Below are positions 7,433 to 44,451 of a stretch of 57,740 bases of DNA, in pieces. This DNA is from Desulfobulbaceae bacterium (lineage in GTDB: Bacteria; Desulfobacterota; Desulfobulbia; Desulfobulbales; SURF-16), in assembly GCA_020444175.1 (NCBI GenBank), contig JAHLLM010000037.1:1-57740 (forward strand). The letters are read 5' to 3'. The position numbers and the translations under genes are program-made. A model generated the notes under the pieces. It did no database searches. It was not told the origin of the DNA and saw only the letters and a program-made list of their open reading frames with translations. Positions within the stretch are counted from its first letter, which is position 1; each line of letters begins with the position of its first letter.

Positions 7433-8203
7433 CTAGCGACAAATGACGACTGCCGTAATATTATCCTTGCCCCCTGCCTCGTTTGCCTGGTGAACAAGGG
7501 TGTCGCAGGCCTCTTCGGGGTTTTGCGATTCCTGGAGAACACGGGACATCTCATCATCATCAAGCATCCCCCAAAGCCCGTCAGTGCAAAGAAGAATTTG
7601 ATTTCCTGACTGCAGGGGAATCTGATGCAATTCCGGTTCTTCAGGAAAAGGGAAACCTATGCCCCGGGTGATTACATGTCGGCCAAAGGTATTCCCCTTG
7701 CCCTCCGCTGTTCCCTCCTGTTCCCTGACCAGGGAATGATCCGTGGTTATCTGTTTCATGGAATCGGAATCCGCCAGATAGGCCCGCACGTCGCCGACGT
7801 GGCAGAAGTAGGCAGTATTCCCGTCAATAAGACAGGCAATAAAGGTACACCCCATGCCCTGCTGGTCGGGATCTTCCGATGACATATCCATCACTTTCTG
7901 GTTTGCACAATGGAAACTCAACAGCAATTCGTGCCCTATTGCCAGCGCGTTTCCCCGGATCCGGGCAATCTTCTCAGGTGTGAAAAACTCAATAAGGCAT
8001 TCCGTTGCCACCCGGCTTGCCACCTCTCCGGCATTGTGACCGCCCATTCCATCGGCAACGAGAAAAAAATTTCTTTCAGGAAGGATGGCAAAATTGTCTT
8101 CATTGTTTTTGCGAACCATTCCCGTATCAGTACGACCGAAACAGGAAATCGGGCGATCCGGCCAGAAGATTTTTTTGAGAAAACTCAGGATGCGTCCCAT
8201 CAT
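7433..8203 (-). CDS. PP2C-type serine/threonine protein phosphatase
   Basis: A 256-residue cytoplasmic Mn/Mg-dependent phosphatase (PrpC/Stp1 branch). Motifs in order: R-x-x-N-E-D (RKNNEDNFA, about residue 31), the metal-binding VADGMGGHNAGEVAS (about 49), the H-V-G-D-V-R-A-Y motif, the acidic CTDGLWGML and the terminal GGKDNITAVV. All metal-ligand Asp residues are present. It starts 9 bases downstream of the WD40 kinase gene, so it presumably reverses phosphorylation by that kinase. The N-terminal 20 residues contain a short basic-hydrophobic stretch that is not a convincing signal. Confidence 0.92.
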   Translation of the reverse strand: MMGRILSFLKKIFWPDRPISCFGRTDTGMVRKNNEDNFAILPERNFFLVADGMGGHNAGEVASRVATECLIEFFTPEKIARIRGNALAIGHELLLSFHCANQKVMDMSSEDPDQQGMGCTFIACLIDGNTAYFCHVGDVRAYLADSDSMKQITTDHSLVREQEGTAEGKGNTFGRHVITRGIGFPFPEEPELHQIPLQSGNQILLCTDGLWGMLDDDEMSRVLQESQNPEEACDTLVHQANEAGGKDNITAVVICR

Positions 8204-8212
8204 AGCAATCTG

Positions 8213-10681
8213 TTAATGACTCCTCAATGCCGACGGACGACCATCATCAAAAGTCAATTGATAGATGATCGCCCATAAAATTATTGCTCCATCCTGGCGC
8301 CCTGCCAGAAAAGTATGCGGTTTCGGTCCCTGGGCAAGGCTGCTCACTCCGTCTCCCCTGGCATCCAGCACATGCTTGCAGTTGCCGCTCTGCAGGTCCC
8401 ATAGTTTGATGATATCGTCCTCGCAGCCGACAACTACCGTTTTCTCGTCGGCAAGCAGCAGAACCGAACTCACGGCATCTTCATGCCCGTCAAGGGTCTG
8501 AAGACAACGGCGGGTTTTACTGTCCCATATACGCACCTGCCGGTCGGCACTGCCGGTTGCAAGGCATCTGCCGTTTGGGCTTACGGACATTGTTGTCAGC
8601 GGCAGCACATGCGCATCTGTTTCGTGCAGGCATTCCCCGCTTTGACCGTCGAAAAAACGAAGCGATCCATCATCACAGCCGGCGGCAAAATCGAGCCCTC
8701 CCAAAGGCACCAGAGAACATACTGCTCCTGACGCCACATCTATAACATTTGTCTTGCCGCTGTCGATTGAATAGATAACCGCTTGCCCATCTTCCAAGCC
8801 AAGCAGAAGATGTTTTTCATCACGACTGAAACAGATTGCCTGGACCGCTGACTTGCCGCAGGACAACACTTTTTTCTTCATATTTTTGAACGGGTGGAGA
8901 ACAATGGTTCCATTTTTCTGCCCCATGACCAGCATACCGGCCGAAGAAGAAACGGCAAGGGAGGTGATTTCATCCTCAGTCTCGGAAAAAAGGACACTGT
9001 TTTTTCGCTGACCAATGCTCCGCACATAAGCCTGCTTTCCCGGAGCGGCTGAAAAAACAAGTTTTCTCTCCGGAATGCTGGCAAGAAAGGCTGCCTGCCC
9101 GGCTTCTCCCGGATGGGTGAGCAGCCTCTGTACAGCACTGATTGTTCCCTTCTTGCCTTCCGGCAGCATTTGTTCATAAATTTTGTAGTAAAATTTATCC
9201 TTTTTAAACGCTTCATTTCCCCAGCTGATCATCAAAGTATCGCAGCACTCCGTCAAACGCCTGTTCTGCAGGAGAGTCAGAATGTTATGATGGACAGAGC
9301 GCCGCAACTGCGCTTCCCGGAATATTTCAGTGGGCGCTTTTGGGAAACAGAGTTGCAGCTCGGACTCTGATTTTCGATCAGGCTCCCGGCCGTCATCATT
9401 GCGCTCCACAAAGTTTTTTATTTCTTTTTCCAGGGAATCAAAGACGGCAAGCTTGGGGAACCTTTTTTTAGTTGCTTCAATACGGCGAAGTAATCTTTCA
9501 GGATTCTCCGTATCCTTGCGCCACATAAGAACATAGGAGTTGTAAAGCGCCTCAGGCAGGCTGTCATTAACCTCAAGGGTCCGGGAAAGATAATTTAAAG
9601 CCTGTTTGTATTTACCCAGCTCGGCTAGGGAAACAGCCCTATTATTCAAGTTTTCAGCCCGCATATCTATTTTTCCCATAATGGCATATGGGCAGGAAAC
9701 TCGGAACAGCTCGAAATAAACCTGATTGAGCGCCTCCTTCATTTCAGTGAAGTTGTTAAACCGTTCATCCTGGTGATAGGCCACGCTCTTAACCAAAATA
9801 TCCTTCAACCCCAGGGGAAGTTCAGTCGCCGGATCCGCCGCCGCAGGCTCCGGGCATTGCCCCTGGGCATTATGCTTATAGGGTCGTTTGCCGCAGAACA
9901 TCATCCACAGACAAAGCCCGAAGGAAAAAACATCCGTACGCCTGTCCACCTTATGCGTATTGCGCAACTGTTCGGGAGAGGCATAGTTCGGAGTTCCCCT
10001 GAAGCCCACCGTAGCATTTTTGTCTTTTTCTGCCTTGGTCAGGGACTGTTCCTTCTCTTCTGCCGGATTCTCAATGGCCCGCAAAATACCGAAATCCGTA
10101 ATTTTAACGAGACCATCCTTGGTCATGAGAATATTTTGAGGTTTGATGTCACGGTGGATGAAACCCATGGAGTGCGTGTATTCCATGCCATTGCAGAATT
10201 GAATGGCCAGCGAAAGAGCGGTTCTCATATCACGGCAACGCCCTCTGTTAATCCATTCATCCAGGGTGCCACCGGAAACATACTCAATAAATATATAGGG
10301 AATATTATCAATTGCGCGGACATAATAACAGGAGGCGATATTTGGATGCACACCCAGTCGAATCCAGCCATTGGCCTCGCGCAGAATACGCTGCAGCCCC
10401 TCACGATCAGCCCACACTTCCGGCCTGGGAGCTTTTATGGCCATCCAGACCCCCCAGCCAAGGTGTTCGGCTATGTAGACCTTGCCCATGGCGCCGCCGA
10501 AAATACGATCAATACGATAGCGGCCATCCATCACGACTTCTCCCGGCAGCCAATTCAGCTGTTGCGCTAATTCTCCTCCGTCGCCGGGTAAAACTACCGT
10601 ATCGGAACCTGTTGTCGTATCACCTGCTCTCCCATGACCGCCAAGAGCCTTGGCCCCTTTTTTAAAAAAACGGCTCAGCAT
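8213..10681 (-). CDS. Serine/threonine protein kinase with TPR-like middle and C-terminal WD40 repeats
   Basis: An 822-residue cytoplasmic kinase. The Hanks-type catalytic domain (about 52-330) has the glycine loop GGAMGKVY, lysine in MAIKAP, catalytic loop FIHRDIKPQN, DFG in ITDFGIL and activation-segment GTPNYASPEQL. A TPR-like stretch follows (about 350-410, NNRAVSLAELGKYKQALNYL). The C-terminal 260 residues contain WD40-type blades with G-S-A-D-R-Q-V-R-I-W-D and D-D-I-I-K-L-W-D signatures, presumably a beta-propeller for protein binding. There is no transmembrane helix, unlike PASTA-type kinases. It lies between the double-FHA gene (338 bases upstream) and the PP2C gene. The substrate is unknown; the neighbouring FHA proteins are the obvious candidates. 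Confidence 0.92.
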   Translation of the reverse strand: MLSRFFKKGAKALGGHGRAGDTTTGSDTVVLPGDGGELAQQLNWLPGEVVMDGRYRIDRIFGGAMGKVYIAEHLGWGVWMAIKAPRPEVWADREGLQRILREANGWIRLGVHPNIASCYYVRAIDNIPYIFIEYVSGGTLDEWINRGRCRDMRTALSLAIQFCNGMEYTHSMGFIHRDIKPQNILMTKDGLVKITDFGILRAIENPAEEKEQSLTKAEKDKNATVGFRGTPNYASPEQLRNTHKVDRRTDVFSFGLCLWMMFCGKRPYKHNAQGQCPEPAAADPATELPLGLKDILVKSVAYHQDERFNNFTEMKEALNQVYFELFRVSCPYAIMGKIDMRAENLNNRAVSLAELGKYKQALNYLSRTLEVNDSLPEALYNSYVLMWRKDTENPERLLRRIEATKKRFPKLAVFDSLEKEIKNFVERNDDGREPDRKSESELQLCFPKAPTEIFREAQLRRSVHHNILTLLQNRRLTECCDTLMISWGNEAFKKDKFYYKIYEQMLPEGKKGTISAVQRLLTHPGEAGQAAFLASIPERKLVFSAAPGKQAYVRSIGQRKNSVLFSETEDEITSLAVSSSAGMLVMGQKNGTIVLHPFKNMKKKVLSCGKSAVQAICFSRDEKHLLLGLEDGQAVIYSIDSGKTNVIDVASGAVCSLVPLGGLDFAAGCDDGSLRFFDGQSGECLHETDAHVLPLTTMSVSPNGRCLATGSADRQVRIWDSKTRRCLQTLDGHEDAVSSVLLLADEKTVVVGCEDDIIKLWDLQSGNCKHVLDARGDGVSSLAQGPKPHTFLAGRQDGAIILWAIIYQLTFDDGRPSALRSH

Positions 10682-11019
10682 ATGTTCGAAAATTTGAGTT
10701 TCAAAATTTGGTGCTTTCGCATTTGTTCCTTAGAGTGTGAAAAGCCGCGCAATTGCCAGTCGACACCTGTGGAGCAGGTTGATATTGCGTGGCCAACGAG
10801 CAGCTTTCTGTTTTTTTTGCATCTTCGCCAAAAAGTAAAGTTTACCCCAGATAAACATAAAAAATTAAAGCACTGGACTCTTTATTGGCCCCTTAAGAGG
10901 GGTAAAAGCACCTTACCAGCAGGCGGGAACCCGTGCCTGTCCACAAATGATCTTTTTACTCAACATCTGTGTCTTGTTCAAAAAATTATTGAACAGGAAA
11001 GGAAACGCGGAAAGGCAAA
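10682..11019. other. Gap upstream of the kinase gene, no gene seen
   Basis: A 338-base region with no credible frame on either strand. It contains a small dyad CCCCTTAAGAGGGG at about 10890. It presumably carries the kinase leader or promoter on the minus strand; I cannot point to a convincing -35/-10 pair. Confidence 0.4.
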
Positions 11020-11718
11020 TCAGTCAAAACGGATCTGTACACCCCGTATCTGAATAATGTCTCCCGGGCGAAGCTGCTGCTCTTTTTTCACAGGTGTACC
11101 ATTGATAAAGGTATTGGACCAGCTGCGCTGGGGGACAAGATAATATTTTTTATCGCGGTTGATCACGTAGCACTGAGCATTTGCCACAAACCATGCACTT
11201 ACACGCAAATCACAGTTTACCTCTTTACCGATTTTAACACTGCTGCGACCGAGCAAAGGAACTTCCTGGGGACTACCGGCCCCCTTAATAACCGTCAGGG
11301 TATGTGTTGTCTTGGCGCCGGCGCTTTTTTTCTCGGAGGGGGCTGAAGGATTCTGACGAGTGACAAAAACAGTTTCATCGCCATAATCCATGGACGCGCT
11401 CTGGGAGGAAAACCCCTGGTCTCTCACGGCTTCAGCAGGCAGCAGGAGAAATTTCCCAAGTTCAACAACATCTTCATCAAAGAGCTGAACACAGGAATCT
11501 ATCTTTTTGCCATTCACCATGGTGCCATTAAGGCTGCCGAGATCTTCCAGAAAGTAAACACCGTTTTTTCTCTCAATTACAGTGTGTTTCCTGGAAATAG
11601 CTGTATTATCGACAACCACATCCGCTTCAGCACTCCTGCCAATAACAAGCCGTTCACCATCCTCAATGGCAAACTGCTTCACCACCTTATCCTTCAGTTT
11701 TATTGCCCATACAGCCAT
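11020..11718 (-). CDS. Double FHA-domain protein
   Basis: A 232-residue protein with two forkhead-associated domains. The first (about 18-90) keeps all phosphothreonine-recognition features: VIGRSAEADVVVD, ISRKH and GSLNGTMVNG. The second (about 140-232) is degenerate: K-I-G-K replaces G-R, V-A-N-A-Q replaces the S-R-x-H motif, and SWSNTFINGTPV keeps only the last turn. I prefer ATG 11718, preceded by AGAGGAG; a TTG at 11736 is less likely. It lies between the FHA-cyclase and kinase genes and may be the docking partner of the kinase. Confidence 0.9.
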   Translation of the reverse strand: MAVWAIKLKDKVVKQFAIEDGERLVIGRSAEADVVVDNTAISRKHTVIERKNGVYFLEDLGSLNGTMVNGKKIDSCVQLFDEDVVELGKFLLLPAEAVRDQGFSSQSASMDYGDETVFVTRQNPSAPSEKKSAGAKTTHTLTVIKGAGSPQEVPLLGRSSVKIGKEVNCDLRVSAWFVANAQCYVINRDKKYYLVPQRSWSNTFINGTPVKKEQQLRPGDIIQIRGVQIRFD

Positions 11719-11742
11719 GATACGCTCCTCTGTCAAGCCAAT

Positions 11743-11836
11743 CCTTGATGATCTCTCAAAAAATCACGAAGCTGATCATCCGCCTAAAAAATATCAAAAG
11801 TTGATGGTCTCGCATTTATGCCCCGTGAGGGTAATG
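11743..11836 (-). repeat. Dispersed repeat of the GGCGGATGGTCAGCTT family, copy C
   Basis: Read on the minus strand it contains TTGATATTTTTTAGGCGGAT followed by GATCAGCTTCG and a T-run, which aligns with the copies at 31.8, 41.2 and 50.1 kb. It lies between the FHA-cyclase and double-FHA genes. Confidence 0.65.
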
Positions 11837-11892
11837 ACCATAAAACGCCTTCATACTTCACACGAAAAGTATGTCACATTCTTTGGGAAATG

Positions 11893-12891
11893 TCATTTTT
11901 CCATCTCTTTTTTTAACAATGACTTCCAGTTGGCAAGATAATCCCGCAGATTTTTGAAGGAGGTGTAGTAAGCGGTTACCTCTTCGGATTTTCCTTTAAT
12001 AGTGTATTTTCTACGGGTAAAATAAGATTCAGCCTCCTGGAGCTGTTGAAAGGTGTGCTCGCCGATAATCAAATCCACCTGCTGGAAAGATGTCATCTGC
12101 TCCAGACGGAAGGTAAGATTAACGACGTCTCCGACAATGGTGAAATCACGCTGGCCGTCTCCGCCGACGTTGCTCATAACCGCTTCGCCGGTATTCACCC
12201 CGGCCCCGACCTGCAGCTCCCTGTCGCCTCCCTTTATCTTTTCCCCGATCTTCCTCGTCCAGAGGCTTATTTCAAGAACTGAATAAAGGGCCTTGATGAC
12301 CGTGATAAAATCAGCTCCACTGGGCCAGACGGCAAGAACGGCATCGCCTATGAATTTATCAACATGCCCACCGTTTTTCTGGATAATGGCGGCAACCTTC
12401 TTTGTCCATACAGTAAGAAACTCAGAAACATGCTCTGCTCCGATTTCTTCTGAAAGCGGAGTAAACTGGCGGATATCGCAAACAAGAATAGTTGCCAGTT
12501 CCTTTTGAAAAAAGGCCACTGTTTCATCCCCCTGCTCCGATTCCTCATCCCCCTCCACTTCCGTGGGCATCCAGTTTTCCAGGACAAAAACAAGTTCAGA
12601 TTTGCCGATTTTTATCAGGTCACCGGAAGATAATCTGGTTGGGGTGTAAACACGGCGTCCATTCAGCAGGGTGCCGTTTGAACTGCCAAGATCAATTATA
12701 TTATGGTTAAAATTCTCCTCCACCTGTATCATGGCATGCTGCCTGGAAACCCAGGGATACGGCAGAAGTATATCGCAGCCATCACCACGCCCAAGACGGA
12801 ACGTGCCCTTGCCTTCGAGCGGCCATATTTGCTCATCCCCGCTCCCGGATTGCAGCTTTAAAAAAGCTTTTGGTGCTACTCTGTTGCCCAT
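11893..12891 (-). CDS. FHA domain-class III adenylate cyclase fusion
   Basis: A 332-residue cytoplasmic protein. Residues about 25-105 form a canonical FHA domain (RLGRGDGCDILL, VSRQHAMI, GSSNGTLLNGR). Residues about 135-300 form a class III nucleotidyl cyclase: first metal Asp in LVCDIRQFTPLSEE, second metal Asp and adenine-specifying Lys in VDKFIGDAVLAVW, and transition-state Asn and Arg in FTIVGDVVNLTFRLE. All catalytic residues look intact, with Lys/Asp-type selection that favours ATP, so cAMP is the expected product. FHA modules let such cyclases dock on phosphothreonine proteins. It begins the minus-strand run FHA-cyclase, double FHA, kinase, PP2C and is divergent from an HDOD gene. Confidence 0.92.
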   Translation of the reverse strand: MGNRVAPKAFLKLQSGSGDEQIWPLEGKGTFRLGRGDGCDILLPYPWVSRQHAMIQVEENFNHNIIDLGSSNGTLLNGRRVYTPTRLSSGDLIKIGKSELVFVLENWMPTEVEGDEESEQGDETVAFFQKELATILVCDIRQFTPLSEEIGAEHVSEFLTVWTKKVAAIIQKNGGHVDKFIGDAVLAVWPSGADFITVIKALYSVLEISLWTRKIGEKIKGGDRELQVGAGVNTGEAVMSNVGGDGQRDFTIVGDVVNLTFRLEQMTSFQQVDLIIGEHTFQQLQEAESYFTRRKYTIKGKSEEVTAYYTSFKNLRDYLANWKSLLKKEMEK

Positions 12892-13075
12892 ATAATACGT
12901 TTTCTTGTACTTTTCCGGAACCGTTCAGCCGGAACGTCCCGGGTTATTCTGATATTGGTCACATCTGCCTGCAACATAAGAATGTTTAACAGACTATGGA
13001 ATTTCCTGATCTTTTGACGTATAATATCATTTTATTGAATTAGAATGTAACTTTTTAATGATACATATTTGACTA

Positions 13076-14620
13076 ATGACTGAACCCACAGACCAGCCTT
13101 CCGAAAAACTGGCAGAAATTTTCGCCAAGATGAACATGAGCGAACTTCCGGCCATGTCCGGGCATGTACAAGAGCTCATCTCACTGGTGCACAGCAGTCG
13201 CAGTGCCGCCTATGACCTCTCAAGGGTCATTCTCAAGGACTACTCCCTTACCAATAAAGTTTTGCAGGTGGTCAATTCCGCGTACTACTCAATAGGACAG
13301 TCCGTCAGCTCCATTTCAAAGGCTGTAACCATTCTCGGCTTTGATGCAGTGCGCGACCTGGCAACCGCCATTGCTATTTTTGAAGATTTTATTAAATCCG
13401 GTGTTGAGAAAGAGGGTATCAGCAAACTCATGACCAGATCTTTTCTCAGCGCACTTCAGTGCCGGGACATGGTCAATATTAAAAAATTAAACATCCTGCC
13501 GGAGGAAGCATTCATCTGCGGCCTTCTTCATAACCTTGGAAAAATCATCACTTTCATTTATCTTCCTGAAATTTACAAAGAAATAGAAAAAATGGTTAAC
13601 GCAGGCACGGATGAAGAAAAAGCAACCCGCAACCTGCTTGAGGAACTGACATTTGCCGACCTGGGCCGGGAAATTGCCACATTCTGGAACCTCTCTGATA
13701 AGGTAGTGGTGTCCATGAATACCAACCCGAGCACCCCAAAAAGCAATTATGACACAGATGCTTACCTGCAAAATATTGCAGATTTCAGCAATCGCTTCGT
13801 CGACCAGATCTGCAGTGGCGGAGATACGACTGAACTGTTTGAAAAATACGGCCCTGTGTTTTCCATTGACAAAGAAAAATCACTTGAGCTCCTTGAAAAA
13901 AGCGTTGAGGCTTCCCAGGATATTTCTGACAATGTCCGCTTCGGCCTTTCCAAACTGAAAATCCATTCCAAAATGCAGAAAGCGGCCAGGGAACTTTCGG
14001 CTCCGCCGGAGGAAGGAAAGCAAAAAAGCAAAACACCTGGCGGCAAAGAGAATAAATCAGCCAAGAAAGAACAGAAAAAAACCATCAAGGAGCTTGATGA
14101 TCTGCCAAGCAGTGATAAATCAATAAACGAGTTTATCAAAGAGATGACGGAAACCCTTATGGGTTCCTTTCAGCTCAATGAATTTTACGCCAACCTGCTT
14201 GAGGCAATCTATCGGGGAGTCGGTTTTGACCGGGTAATCCTTGGCGTTCTCAGTATACAGACCACAAAAATCGTTCTGGTCGGCCGCTTCGGTCTTGGAG
14301 ACATAGACTCCTCTGAAATTGCCAACTTCGAGCAATCCATGGCCAATACAGACCAGGCAATCCCCAGAGCAATGATTCATCGCAAGGATGTGGCCATCTC
14401 CCCCGGTTCACCAGGTGATTTCCCGGAAAACATGCAGTACCTGGTGAAAGACAGAACCGTTTACCTCTTTCCAATTTGCGTTAACAAGAAAGCCATTGCC
14501 CTCCTTTATATGGATCGCAAACTGGGAAGACCAAAACTGGACAAAAATCGCATCAAAGCTGTTCGGCTTTTCCGCGATTTTGCAGCTATGGCAATCAAAA
14601 AAAGCAGCAAAAAAGGCTGA
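13076..14620 (+). CDS. HDOD-domain signalling protein with C-terminal GAF-like region
   Basis: A 514-residue cytoplasmic protein. Residues about 18-230 are an HDOD domain (LPAMSGHVQEL, YSLTNKVLQVVNSAYYS, AVTILGFDAVRDLA, EEAFICGLLHNLGKI). A Lys/Glu-rich linker follows (about 300-345). The last 160 residues look like a GAF-type sensor (GVGFDRVILGVLS, VYLFPICVNKKAIALLYMDR). A close relative of the same layout is encoded at 42994-44451. HDOD proteins usually act as non-catalytic scaffolds in signalling. It is divergent from the FHA-cyclase gene. A TATAAT at 13020-13025 is a plausible -10 element. Confidence 0.88.
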   Translation: MTEPTDQPSEKLAEIFAKMNMSELPAMSGHVQELISLVHSSRSAAYDLSRVILKDYSLTNKVLQVVNSAYYSIGQSVSSISKAVTILGFDAVRDLATAIAIFEDFIKSGVEKEGISKLMTRSFLSALQCRDMVNIKKLNILPEEAFICGLLHNLGKIITFIYLPEIYKEIEKMVNAGTDEEKATRNLLEELTFADLGREIATFWNLSDKVVVSMNTNPSTPKSNYDTDAYLQNIADFSNRFVDQICSGGDTTELFEKYGPVFSIDKEKSLELLEKSVEASQDISDNVRFGLSKLKIHSKMQKAARELSAPPEEGKQKSKTPGGKENKSAKKEQKKTIKELDDLPSSDKSINEFIKEMTETLMGSFQLNEFYANLLEAIYRGVGFDRVILGVLSIQTTKIVLVGRFGLGDIDSSEIANFEQSMANTDQAIPRAMIHRKDVAISPGSPGDFPENMQYLVKDRTVYLFPICVNKKAIALLYMDRKLGRPKLDKNRIKAVRLFRDFAAMAIKKSSKKG

Positions 14621-42993: not shown

Positions 42994-44451
42994 TTATTCT
43001 TTTTTACGTTTCAACATAATCGCCTTCTCGGCAAGGTCGCGAAATTTCTTCACATACTTTATCTGGAGTGCATCCAGTTTAGCCTTTCCCTTTTTTCGGT
43101 CAAGATAAATAAGAGCAACTCCCTTGTTTCGCATACTGACAGGAAACAGATAGAGCACACGATCTTCGACCAGCGACTGGAGATGATCGGGGAAAACAGC
43201 TTTTGTCCCGTCTGCCAGGGCCAAATCCCTTCTCATTACAAATGATTCTACCAGACTAACCCTTGAATCTGCCAGCGAAACCTTAAAACTCTTAATATCA
43301 GCAGGAGAAACATCTCCAACTCCTAATTTTCCGGCAAGCATTTTTCGGTTTTCATCGTCAATGCGCAACATGAGAAGCAACACTCGATCAAAGCCAATAC
43401 CTTTGTAAAGCGCATCAATGAGAAAAGAAAAAAAATCATTCAGCCGAAAATCGCTCTTTAACAGGGCATTTATCTCTTCCCAGTAATCTTTTATGCTTTT
43501 TGCGCTGGAAGAAGAGGAAACAACCTCCTCCAATTCTTGAATTTCATTCAGTCTTTTCTGAAAATCAAGCTGCTCGATTCCGGGCCGAATTGACTCAAAA
43601 ATCGCTTTTCCAGAGGTTGATGTCTCCTGTAATATATCTACAGTCTCTTCATCATCCAGATCAAGAGTAAAACCATATTTCTCAATTAATTCAGTGGTAC
43701 TCTTCAGAAACCAGAGGCAGTCAACATATCGATTGCTGAAATCGACAATATTATGCAAATATGTCTCGACTTCGCTTTCCTCTTCAGCAAGCGGGGGATC
43801 AACTTCCATGGTTTTTATAACATTTTCAGTCATATTCCAGAAAATTGCCACCTCTCTGCCCAAATCCGCATAGGACAATCCATCAAGGATCGACCGGCAG
43901 GCCTGCTCTTCGTCCCCGCCTTTCTTCACCTTATCTTCAATTGCAATGTAGACTGTGGGCAAATATATACAGGCAATTATTTTGCCCAAATTCCGCATCA
44001 GTCCACAGATAAACGCCTCTTCGGGTAACACCTTCAGATAACGCGACTCTGCTATCCGACGGGATAACATTGCTGCCAAAAATGAACGGGTCAGGATTTC
44101 ACCAATCTGTCCGGCATCCACCCCGGCCTGGACAAAATCATCATACAGAGCAATACCAATGGCAAGATCGCGAACCGTATCAAATCCCAAAACGGCAACA
44201 GCCATTGAGACGGTGGAAACTTTCTGCCCCAGAGAGTAATATGCAGAATTTGCATACTGCAACACCTTATGGGTCAGCGAGAAGTCATTCAGTATGATTT
44301 TTGCCAGATCATCATAATTTGCGCTTCTTTTGCCACTTGTCATGGCAAGTAATTCCTGCACATGAACAGACATTGCAGGCAGTTCGCTCATGTTTATCCT
44401 GGAAAAAATTTCGGCAAGTTTTCCTTGCTGGACCGTACTGGAATCAGTCAT
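42994..44451 (-). CDS. HDOD-domain signalling protein, paralogue of the 13-kb protein
   Basis: A 485-residue protein with the same order as the gene at 13076-14620: HDOD domain (about 15-230, LPAMSVHVQELLAM, FSLTHKVLQYANSAYYS, EEAFICGLMRNLGKI), short linker, C-terminal GAF-like region (about 325-480, GIGFDRVLLLMLR, LYLFPVSMRNKGVALIYLDR). Amino-acid similarity is high over the whole length, so it is a true paralogue. It lacks the long Lys-rich linker of the other copy. Isolated between the CutA-TPR gene and divergent recQ. Confidence 0.87.
   Translation of the reverse strand: MTDSSTVQQGKLAEIFSRINMSELPAMSVHVQELLAMTSGKRSANYDDLAKIILNDFSLTHKVLQYANSAYYSLGQKVSTVSMAVAVLGFDTVRDLAIGIALYDDFVQAGVDAGQIGEILTRSFLAAMLSRRIAESRYLKVLPEEAFICGLMRNLGKIIACIYLPTVYIAIEDKVKKGGDEEQACRSILDGLSYADLGREVAIFWNMTENVIKTMEVDPPLAEEESEVETYLHNIVDFSNRYVDCLWFLKSTTELIEKYGFTLDLDDEETVDILQETSTSGKAIFESIRPGIEQLDFQKRLNEIQELEEVVSSSSSAKSIKDYWEEINALLKSDFRLNDFFSFLIDALYKGIGFDRVLLLMLRIDDENRKMLAGKLGVGDVSPADIKSFKVSLADSRVSLVESFVMRRDLALADGTKAVFPDHLQSLVEDRVLYLFPVSMRNKGVALIYLDRKKGKAKLDALQIKYVKKFRDLAEKAIMLKRKKE

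Follow-up and report, generated by a model that had tools for sequence, protein, structure and literature searches.

What does a phosphothreonine-reading FHA domain bind when it is fused to an adenylate cyclase and encoded in the same run of genes as a Ser/Thr kinase and a phosphatase? This question is raised by a locus in a Desulfobulbaceae bacterium (GenBank assembly GCA_020444175.1, contig JAHLLM010000037.1). The 57,740-nucleotide stretch that we analyzed, hereafter the window, corresponds to contig C16; the genome to which it belongs measures 5.4 Mb and is listed as 100% complete. Between moeA and serS lie four minus-strand genes, encoding a PP2C-type phosphatase, a WD40 Ser/Thr kinase, a protein with two FHA domains (the double-FHA protein) and an FHA-adenylate cyclase fusion, together with a divergent gene for an HDOD protein. 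The original prediction, made from the sequence alone, had described these five genes and suggested that they form a complete phosphothreonine-to-cyclic AMP (cAMP) circuit. All five open reading frames and their Pfam domains were confirmed, with every Pfam match above the Pfam cut-off. Our analysis indicates that the locus is a real, conserved signalling neighbourhood, and that its most informative part is the FHA-adenylate cyclase, which likely has a phosphothreonine ligand built into its own chain.

The evidence for such a ligand lies in the linker that joins the FHA and cyclase domains. We aligned the complete, unique proteins of the order (45 cyclases, 37 kinases and 33 double-FHA proteins), excluding incomplete or interrupted genes. 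Thr124 of the cyclase, which falls 19–23 residues after the last invariant FHA residue, is Thr in 45/45 proteins, with Ser in none; the linker columns outside the motif have an average majority residue of 0.36. The residues around it are conserved as well: Asp or Glu at –2 (42/45), Val or Ile at +1 (45/45), Ala at +2 (43/45) and Phe, Tyr or Val at +3 (43/45). Adding the incomplete cyclase genes (five orthologs, all with Thr) gives 49/49 loci beside the window. The double-FHA protein presents a similar picture between its two FHA domains, where Thr116 is Thr in 33/33 proteins, with Asp or Glu at –2 in 32, Phe at +2 in 30 and Val at +3 in 28. This threonine is kept in all 53 loci of the order that align over that place and in 20/20 distant double-FHA homologues from elsewhere in the phylum, 17 of which also have the acidic –2 residue. 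The same linker threonine therefore precedes two unrelated following domains, a cyclase and a second FHA domain. FHA domains prefer phosphothreonine, and a residue that is Thr but never Ser in order-wide sets fits the expectation for an FHA ligand. In contrast to these FHA linkers, the HDOD protein has a low-confidence linker (residues 310–341) where no column is invariant between L294 and E359.

Conservation of this kind could also reflect a structural role. Thr124 lies four residues ahead of the first modelled cyclase strand (128–140), positions +1 to +3 are conserved along with it, and the residue might serve only to lead into that strand while the FHA domain responds to some unrelated input. 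We consider this improbable. In a control set of 63 class III cyclases, in which no FHA domain was detected and from which known FHA-cyclases had been removed by name, Thr occupies that place (counted as an ungapped offset) in only 3, and lies within two places of it in 13. The double-FHA protein has the same Thr with no cyclase behind it, and at a structural position Ser or Val might be expected as well. Beyond the phylum, the linker Thr is kept in 11/13 FHA-cyclases from records titled Chamaesiphon, Aminicenantes, Verrucomicrobia or Chthoniobacterales, Acidobacteria and Elusimicrobia; an ungapped count on three of these proteins gave Thr in one. Searching the phylum with the cyclase alignment was dominated by the cyclase domain, and among the matches listed few beyond the order reach the FHA part (G438, G297, G339). 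A scan of genome contigs with two short patterns yielded, among the matches listed, mostly cyclases without FHA, and provides names rather than a census.

The FHA domain of the cyclase retains the residues expected of a phosphothreonine reader, as G34, R35, S49, R50, H52, N72, G73 and T74 are each present in 45/45 proteins. FHA1 of the double-FHA protein is nearly as well conserved (G27, S42 and N64 in 33/33; R28, R43 and H45 in 32/33). In FHA2, however, the Arg of the ‘GR’ pair is Lys in 29/33 proteins and Arg in 3/33, and at the places aligned with S-R-x-H, Ser is found in 6/33 and Gln replaces His in 32/33. With these residues largely lost from FHA2, probably only FHA1 of this protein reads phosphothreonine, and FHA2 is probably a phosphate-independent binding domain. 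The suggestion that the FHA domains of the cluster read phosphothreonine is thus borne out, at the level of consensus residues, for the cyclase FHA and FHA1 but not for the degenerate FHA2.

The catalytic motifs of all three enzymes had been called intact, and we agree. Kinase residues K83, E102, H176-R177-D178, N183 and D196-F197-G198 are kept in 37/37 proteins; cyclase residues D139, K179 and N258 are found in 45/45 and D183, T251 and R262 in 44/45 (the exception at T251 being Ser); and the acidic motifs of PP2C are visible in the translation. One cyclase, at locus L069, has D183A (GAA for GDA) and retains the FHA residues and the linker Thr, and is possibly a catalytically dead reader. The cyclase of the window has the features of class III, namely two metal-binding Asp residues, a base-specifying Lys/Thr pair and an Asn/Arg pair. 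The Lys/Thr pair is of the adenylate type and points to a predicted adenylate cyclase of IIIb type. An AlphaFold2 model (mean predicted local distance difference test (pLDDT) score 88.2, predicted template modelling score 0.63) has two well-predicted domains joined by a disordered linker at residues 111–123 (pLDDT <50). The cyclase half matches the catalytic domains, which are the chains aligned, of CyaC from Spirulina platensis (1wc1; Z 22.9 over 184 residues, 2.2 Å) and CyaB from Pseudomonas aeruginosa (3r5g; Z 22.7 over 188 residues, 2.5 Å). CyaC and CyaB carry other regulatory domains than the FHA-cyclase.

Which kinase could write the mark? The WD40 kinase consists of a variable N-terminal tail, the kinase domain, a middle region and a C-terminal WD40 propeller. 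Its activation-loop residue Thr224 is Thr in 35/37 complete kinases and in 43 of 46 aligned loci, in the context N/D-x-T-V-G-F. We scanned the proteins of the cluster with profiles of each other's threonine motifs, against a background of 8285 Thr windows; the resulting p-values are per threonine and modest. The profile of the cyclase linker ranked kinase T224 first of 38 Thr (p 0.0033) and double-FHA T116 first of 11 (p 0.0027), and the activation-loop profile ranked cyclase T124 first of 21 (p 0.0045). We take this apparent sharing of a motif between linker and kinase loop as a hint only. Outside the phylum, a kinase-like match accompanies 7 of the 13 FHA-cyclases on their stretch (L147, L149, L150, L164, L166, L168 and L208), within about 0.4 kb of the cyclase in L150, L164 and L166, and L149 also has a PP2C. 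Adjacency of the genes in the window's family, and the co-occurrence set out below, likewise favour a link to this kinase.

We propose that phosphothreonine switches this class III (IIIb-type) adenylate cyclase, with its own Thr124 as FHA ligand, the neighbouring kinase as writer and PP2C as eraser, a model in which we place about equal belief and doubt. The FHA domain would bind phosphothreonine, the likeliest ligand being phosphorylated Thr124, either within one chain or across a cyclase dimer. The likely writer would be the WD40 kinase, with an activation-loop Thr in a similar context, and the likely eraser PP2C, encoded 9 bp from the kinase. Engagement of phosphorylated Thr124 may reposition the two cyclase domains and so set cAMP output, as binding of the tail by FHA is proposed to do in the diguanylate cyclase DgcB (below); by analogy to DgcB, activation is slightly more likely than inhibition. 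The double-FHA protein has the same arrangement without an enzyme and is probably a phospho-switched adaptor like GarA or OdhI that answers to the same kinase. We infer the phosphorylation, the binding, the direction of regulation and the identity of the kinase. In the original prediction the kinase marked some target that the FHA domains read; our alignments sharpen this, in that the likely mark is the cyclase's own linker.

This model has a precedent in Bdellovibrio DgcB (Bd0742; PDB 6hbz). The FHA domain of DgcB is reported to bind the protein's own N-terminal tail around T14, which is conserved in homologues, and the self-peptides of DgcB, GarA and OdhI have in common a central Thr, Glu at –2 and a hydrophobic, important +3 residue; the kinase upstream of DgcB is reported there as unidentified (PMC6733907; Meek et al., 2019). 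As in DgcB, an FHA domain with a consensus phosphothreonine pocket is fused to a second-messenger cyclase with a kinase expected upstream, and a tethered Thr has an acidic –2 and a hydrophobic +3 residue, although the –3 and +1 features of DgcB are not shared. Unlike DgcB, a GGDEF enzyme of cyclic di-GMP, our cyclase matches Pfam Guanylate_cyc, belongs to class III and is predicted to make cAMP, and a candidate kinase is encoded alongside it. The cyclase FHA also matches GarA (including 2kfu, the form phosphorylated at Thr22) and OdhI by sequence, and none of the 55 chains listed in the sequence search spans both FHA and cyclase. GarA and OdhI, which work with PknB and PknG in Actinobacteria, resemble the cyclase in an FHA domain that binds its own phosphothreonine (predicted for the cyclase) and in an FHA-recruiting kinase tail; unlike it, they have no enzyme domain, an N-terminal ETTS motif and different partners. 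We rejected filing either FHA protein as OdhI (NCBIfam OdhI 39.7 bits for the cyclase and 60.1 for the double-FHA protein, against a cut-off of 200). In a VIA-align comparison neither DgcB nor GarA was among the best 50 rows, which were filled by the cyclase domain, and we conclude nothing from it.

Several observations weigh against a self-switched cyclase. Two of the FHA-cyclases of other phyla (L157 and L179) have Ala at the linker Thr place, the flanking motif is not kept in these proteins, and 6 of the 13 have no kinase match in their stretch, some of the stretches being short. In the motif scan, T192 of the HDOD protein, in a modelled helical region, does as well as the expected sites when scored by the cyclase profile (p 0.0019); cyclase T134 outranks T124, and kinase T748 outranks T224, with the double-FHA profile; the activation-loop profile ranks double-FHA T116 only third of 11; and the kinase-tail profile ranks T116 first but leaves cyclase T124 outside the top three. 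One genome (G005, locus L083) keeps PP2C, double-FHA and cyclase genes together, but the WD40 kinase is absent from the locus and was not found in the genome at 1e-60. Further kinase-like genes are present in the genome of the window, so the writer may be another kinase. The DgcB and GarA peptides lie N-terminal to the FHA domain, whereas Thr124 lies C-terminal, between FHA and enzyme. Finally, the whole cyclase model does align with DgcB (6hbz) in Foldseek over 294 and 296 columns, in favour of the comparison, but at root-mean-square deviations of 17.9 and 12.8, so only the order of the domains is comparable and not their arrangement.

Instead of its own linker, the cyclase FHA could dock on a phosphothreonine of another protein, such as the kinase loop or tail or the double-FHA linker, in which case the cyclase would be recruited rather than self-switched. 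On this account Thr124 would be just one of several kinase sites, or would be unphosphorylated. We regard it as unlikely but worth keeping in view. Docking of FHA domains on phosphorylated kinases has been described: PknG recruits OdhI and GarA via autophosphorylated tail threonines (PMC8546545) and the activation loop of PknQ binds MupFHA (PMC4238996). The kinase of the cluster offers both kinds of site, with a tail threonine, T28, that is the majority residue in 57%, and the activation-loop T224. By itself, however, docking in trans leaves unexplained why an invariant Thr adjoins the FHA domain in two proteins with different following domains, and docking on the kinase might be either a rival of the self-switch or a step complementary to it.

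We searched 97 genomes for orthologs with presence cut-offs of about 1e-40 (cyclase), 1e-30 (double-FHA) and 1e-60 (kinase), and counted 50 with the cyclase, 56 with the double-FHA protein and 51 with the kinase. A double-FHA match in G080 (3.4e-22) falls outside this count, and the kinase entries of G024 and G046 match residues 284–812 only. All 50 cyclase loci were inspected, as the window and 49 fetched stretches. In the window's family (f1), 17 genomes have the cyclase, and in 16 of them it directly adjoins the double-FHA gene; at the 17th locus (L041) the contig stops at the cyclase, with HDOD on the other side. All five genes lie in one stretch in 10 genomes of this family (the window, L042–L046, L076, L078, L080 and L082), and four, without HDOD, in two more (L047 and L048). 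Contigs end inside or beside the kinase gene in L081, L085 and L089, and in one further family member, G021 (L105), the 3′ end of the cyclase gene stands beside the double-FHA gene at a contig end. Since the neighbourhood recurs in relatives, the clustering is more than chance, and the original prediction does not fail for want of conservation.

Outside this family the cyclase is beside the other genes in none of 33 genomes. No core gene was matched in 32 of these 33 stretches, several of which are short, and in the remaining one (L087) double-FHA and HDOD genes lie about 5 kb off; here the cyclase often adjoins genes that we read as yggS and coaBC. What is widespread is a core of PP2C, kinase and double-FHA genes facing HDOD, found in one stretch in 25 of the 32 genomes outside f1 with a fetched double-FHA locus (of 34 such genomes having one). 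The core is cut or split by contig ends in G029, G059, G068 and G074; G040 has PP2C and double-FHA but lacks both kinase and HDOD, and G063 and G077 have double-FHA alone. In G001 and G009 (L101 and L102), kinase and double-FHA genes are kept and the latter adjoins serS, the cyclase and HDOD genes both being missing from the interval; searching the whole of each genome at 1e-20 gave no cyclase match. That HDOD and FHA-cyclase are both gone from this interval suggests joint loss. The cyclase is unlinked from the core in most genomes that have it, and the core can persist without it. Because G001 and G009 keep the core without cyclase or HDOD, one obligate circuit is not supported, and we rejected a single five-gene system conserved across the order. 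Of the complete circuit once suggested, intact enzymes and an FHA domain suited to reading phosphothreonine and fused to a cyclase remain; its status as one unit across the order does not. Across the wider phylum, a double-FHA match at 1e-25 turned up in 63 of the 395 genomes sampled, and in 20 loci fetched from the 59 such genomes outside the order, PP2C was matched in 16, a kinase in 12 and HDOD in 0. Tandem HDOD genes lie beside the core in L106, L110, L114 and L129.

These patterns could mean that the cyclase is functionally independent of this kinase and that its gene came to lie in the cluster by drift in a single family. The absence of linkage outside f1 fits this idea, as does the need for only one or two arrivals: on a tree of 49 cyclases the in-cluster label requires two changes, and one origin is not rejected (approximately unbiased test, p 0.304). 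Within family f4, G092 carries a cyclase but no double-FHA gene, and in G077 it is the other way round. We nevertheless judge drift highly improbable. Of the 97 genomes, 48 have both cyclase and double-FHA, 2 the cyclase only (G025 and G092), 8 double-FHA only and 39 neither (Fisher p 1e-16, not corrected for shared ancestry), and in at least 3 of the 8 double-FHA-only genomes contigs end near the gene (G010, G015 and G021). Joint absence is also seen within f4 (G024, G037 and G046), the cyclase was inserted exactly between double-FHA and HDOD and retained there, and kinase genes lie near the FHA-cyclases of other phyla, as noted above.

Other known systems share parts of the cluster. The kinase resembles PkwA (PDB 5yzv) and cyanobacterial WD40 kinases in joining a kinase domain to a WD40 propeller (PMC2176072); this likeness is one of domains, and here the kinase sits among PP2C, FHA and HDOD genes. 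Coupling of a Ser/Thr kinase to a class III-like cyclase also recalls the TOMM kinase/cyclase fusion and Myxococcus PKN2 (PMC1262709), but these are single chains, and the TIGR03903 match, limited to the kinase, scores far under the cut-off. We rejected a PknB-type PASTA kinase (NCBIfam PknB_PASTA 186.3 bits, cut-off 450) and type VI secretion TagH (TIGR03354 64.8 bits for double-FHA and 27.5 for the cyclase, cut-off 120.25). An anti-phage system was rejected as well: PADLOC gave just kinase, PP2C and PycC domain matches, those to PycC cover the cyclase domain only, and no effector model is among the listed matches of the five proteins (the best 25 of 34 for the kinase). A Pycsar defence assignment is unlikely.

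Features of the locus in window coordinates, with the evidence for each
Feature	Position	Strand	Evidence or remark
PP2C-type Ser/Thr phosphatase, 256 aa	7433..8203	-	Pfam PP2C 66.7 bits, 3.4e-18
WD40 Ser/Thr kinase, 822 aa	8213..10681	-	Pfam Pkinase 139.7 bits, 1.5e-40 at 62-274; WD40 98.6 bits, 1.3e-28
Thr224 codon, kinase activation loop (NATVGFRGTP)	10010..10012	-	Six residues ahead of invariant T230
Double-FHA protein	11020..11718	-	Pfam FHA 115.1 bits, two stretches
FHA2 of double-FHA protein (approximate limits)	11026..11241	-	Degenerate phosphothreonine site
Thr116 codon, linker between two FHA domains (D-E-T-V-F-V)	11371..11373	-	Conservation
FHA1 of double-FHA protein (approximate limits)	11434..11640	-	Consensus phosphothreonine-binding residues
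FHA-adenylate cyclase fusion, 332 aa	11893..12891	-	Pfam FHA 73.7 bits, 1.6e-20; Guanylate_cyc 50.6 bits, 2.2e-13
Class III cyclase domain, Lys179/Thr251 (approximate limits)	11956..12510	-	Pfam, structure match, conserved residues
Thr124 codon, FHA-cyclase linker (G-D-E-T-V-A-F), proposed phospho-switch	12520..12522	-	Conservation
Cyclase FHA domain (approximate limits)	12577..12858	-	Eight invariant FHA positions
HDOD protein: HDOD residues 24-215 and GAF-like domain about 350-512	13076..14620	+	Pfam HDOD 138.1 bits, 3.3e-40

For the double-FHA gene we chose the ATG at 11718 as the start, with a TTG at 11736 as the alternative. Gaps of 338 bp between kinase and double-FHA and of 156–174 bp between double-FHA and cyclase make a single transcript uncertain. 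Promoter-like sites (19, against 8.0 expected) and terminator-like sites (12, against 9.0) were not used for operon calls, and Rfam matched three tRNAs only. The PP2C falls just below the NCBIfam Stp1 cut-off (220.6 bits, cut-off 230).

The genome as a whole has six FHA matches, which read as four proteins, two in the cluster and two on contig C63. There, at L040:5390-17664, FHA proteins, a PP2C-like gene, two kinase-like genes and a class III cyclase occur in a different order, together with an FHA protein that has apparent GAF and histidine-kinase parts. One C63 FHA protein has a Thr behind its FHA domain, in the context E-H-T-I-V-L, and none was seen in the other. Three class III cyclase matches and 17 cNMP_binding matches were found in the genome, so possible cAMP receivers are present.

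A more speculative receiver, closer at hand, is the HDOD protein (model mean pLDDT 78.6). Its C-terminal third, which Pfam does not name, is GAF-like by Foldseek (3eea, TMt 0.80; 3oov, 0.73) and also matches the cAMP-bound GAF domain of Lcd1 (5w10, TMt 0.68–0.72). GAF domains bind many ligands, and cAMP reading by this one is therefore speculation. The same contig encodes a paralogue of this protein, with 48% identity across the HDOD part (window 42994-44451, minus strand).

A broader version of our model would have FHA-class III cyclases of several phyla act as phosphothreonine-to-cAMP converters with a linker phospho-ligand and, in this order, the core writing the mark and HDOD-GAF reading cAMP to close the relay; we think this distinctly improbable. 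The proposed FHA self-switch on a class III cyclase makes the system a variant rather than a new kind. A literature search, with most subscription papers out of its reach, turned up no title describing an FHA-gated adenylate cyclase, and to our knowledge little work has addressed how Hanks-type kinases connect directly to cAMP in bacteria. In 12 of the genomes examined, genes for the candidate writer, eraser, reader and enzyme stand together, and Thr124 is a single mutable residue. If the model is true, FHA gating would be a module that can be attached to second-messenger enzymes in general, and the threonine of the linker would be a sequence marker for finding more of them.

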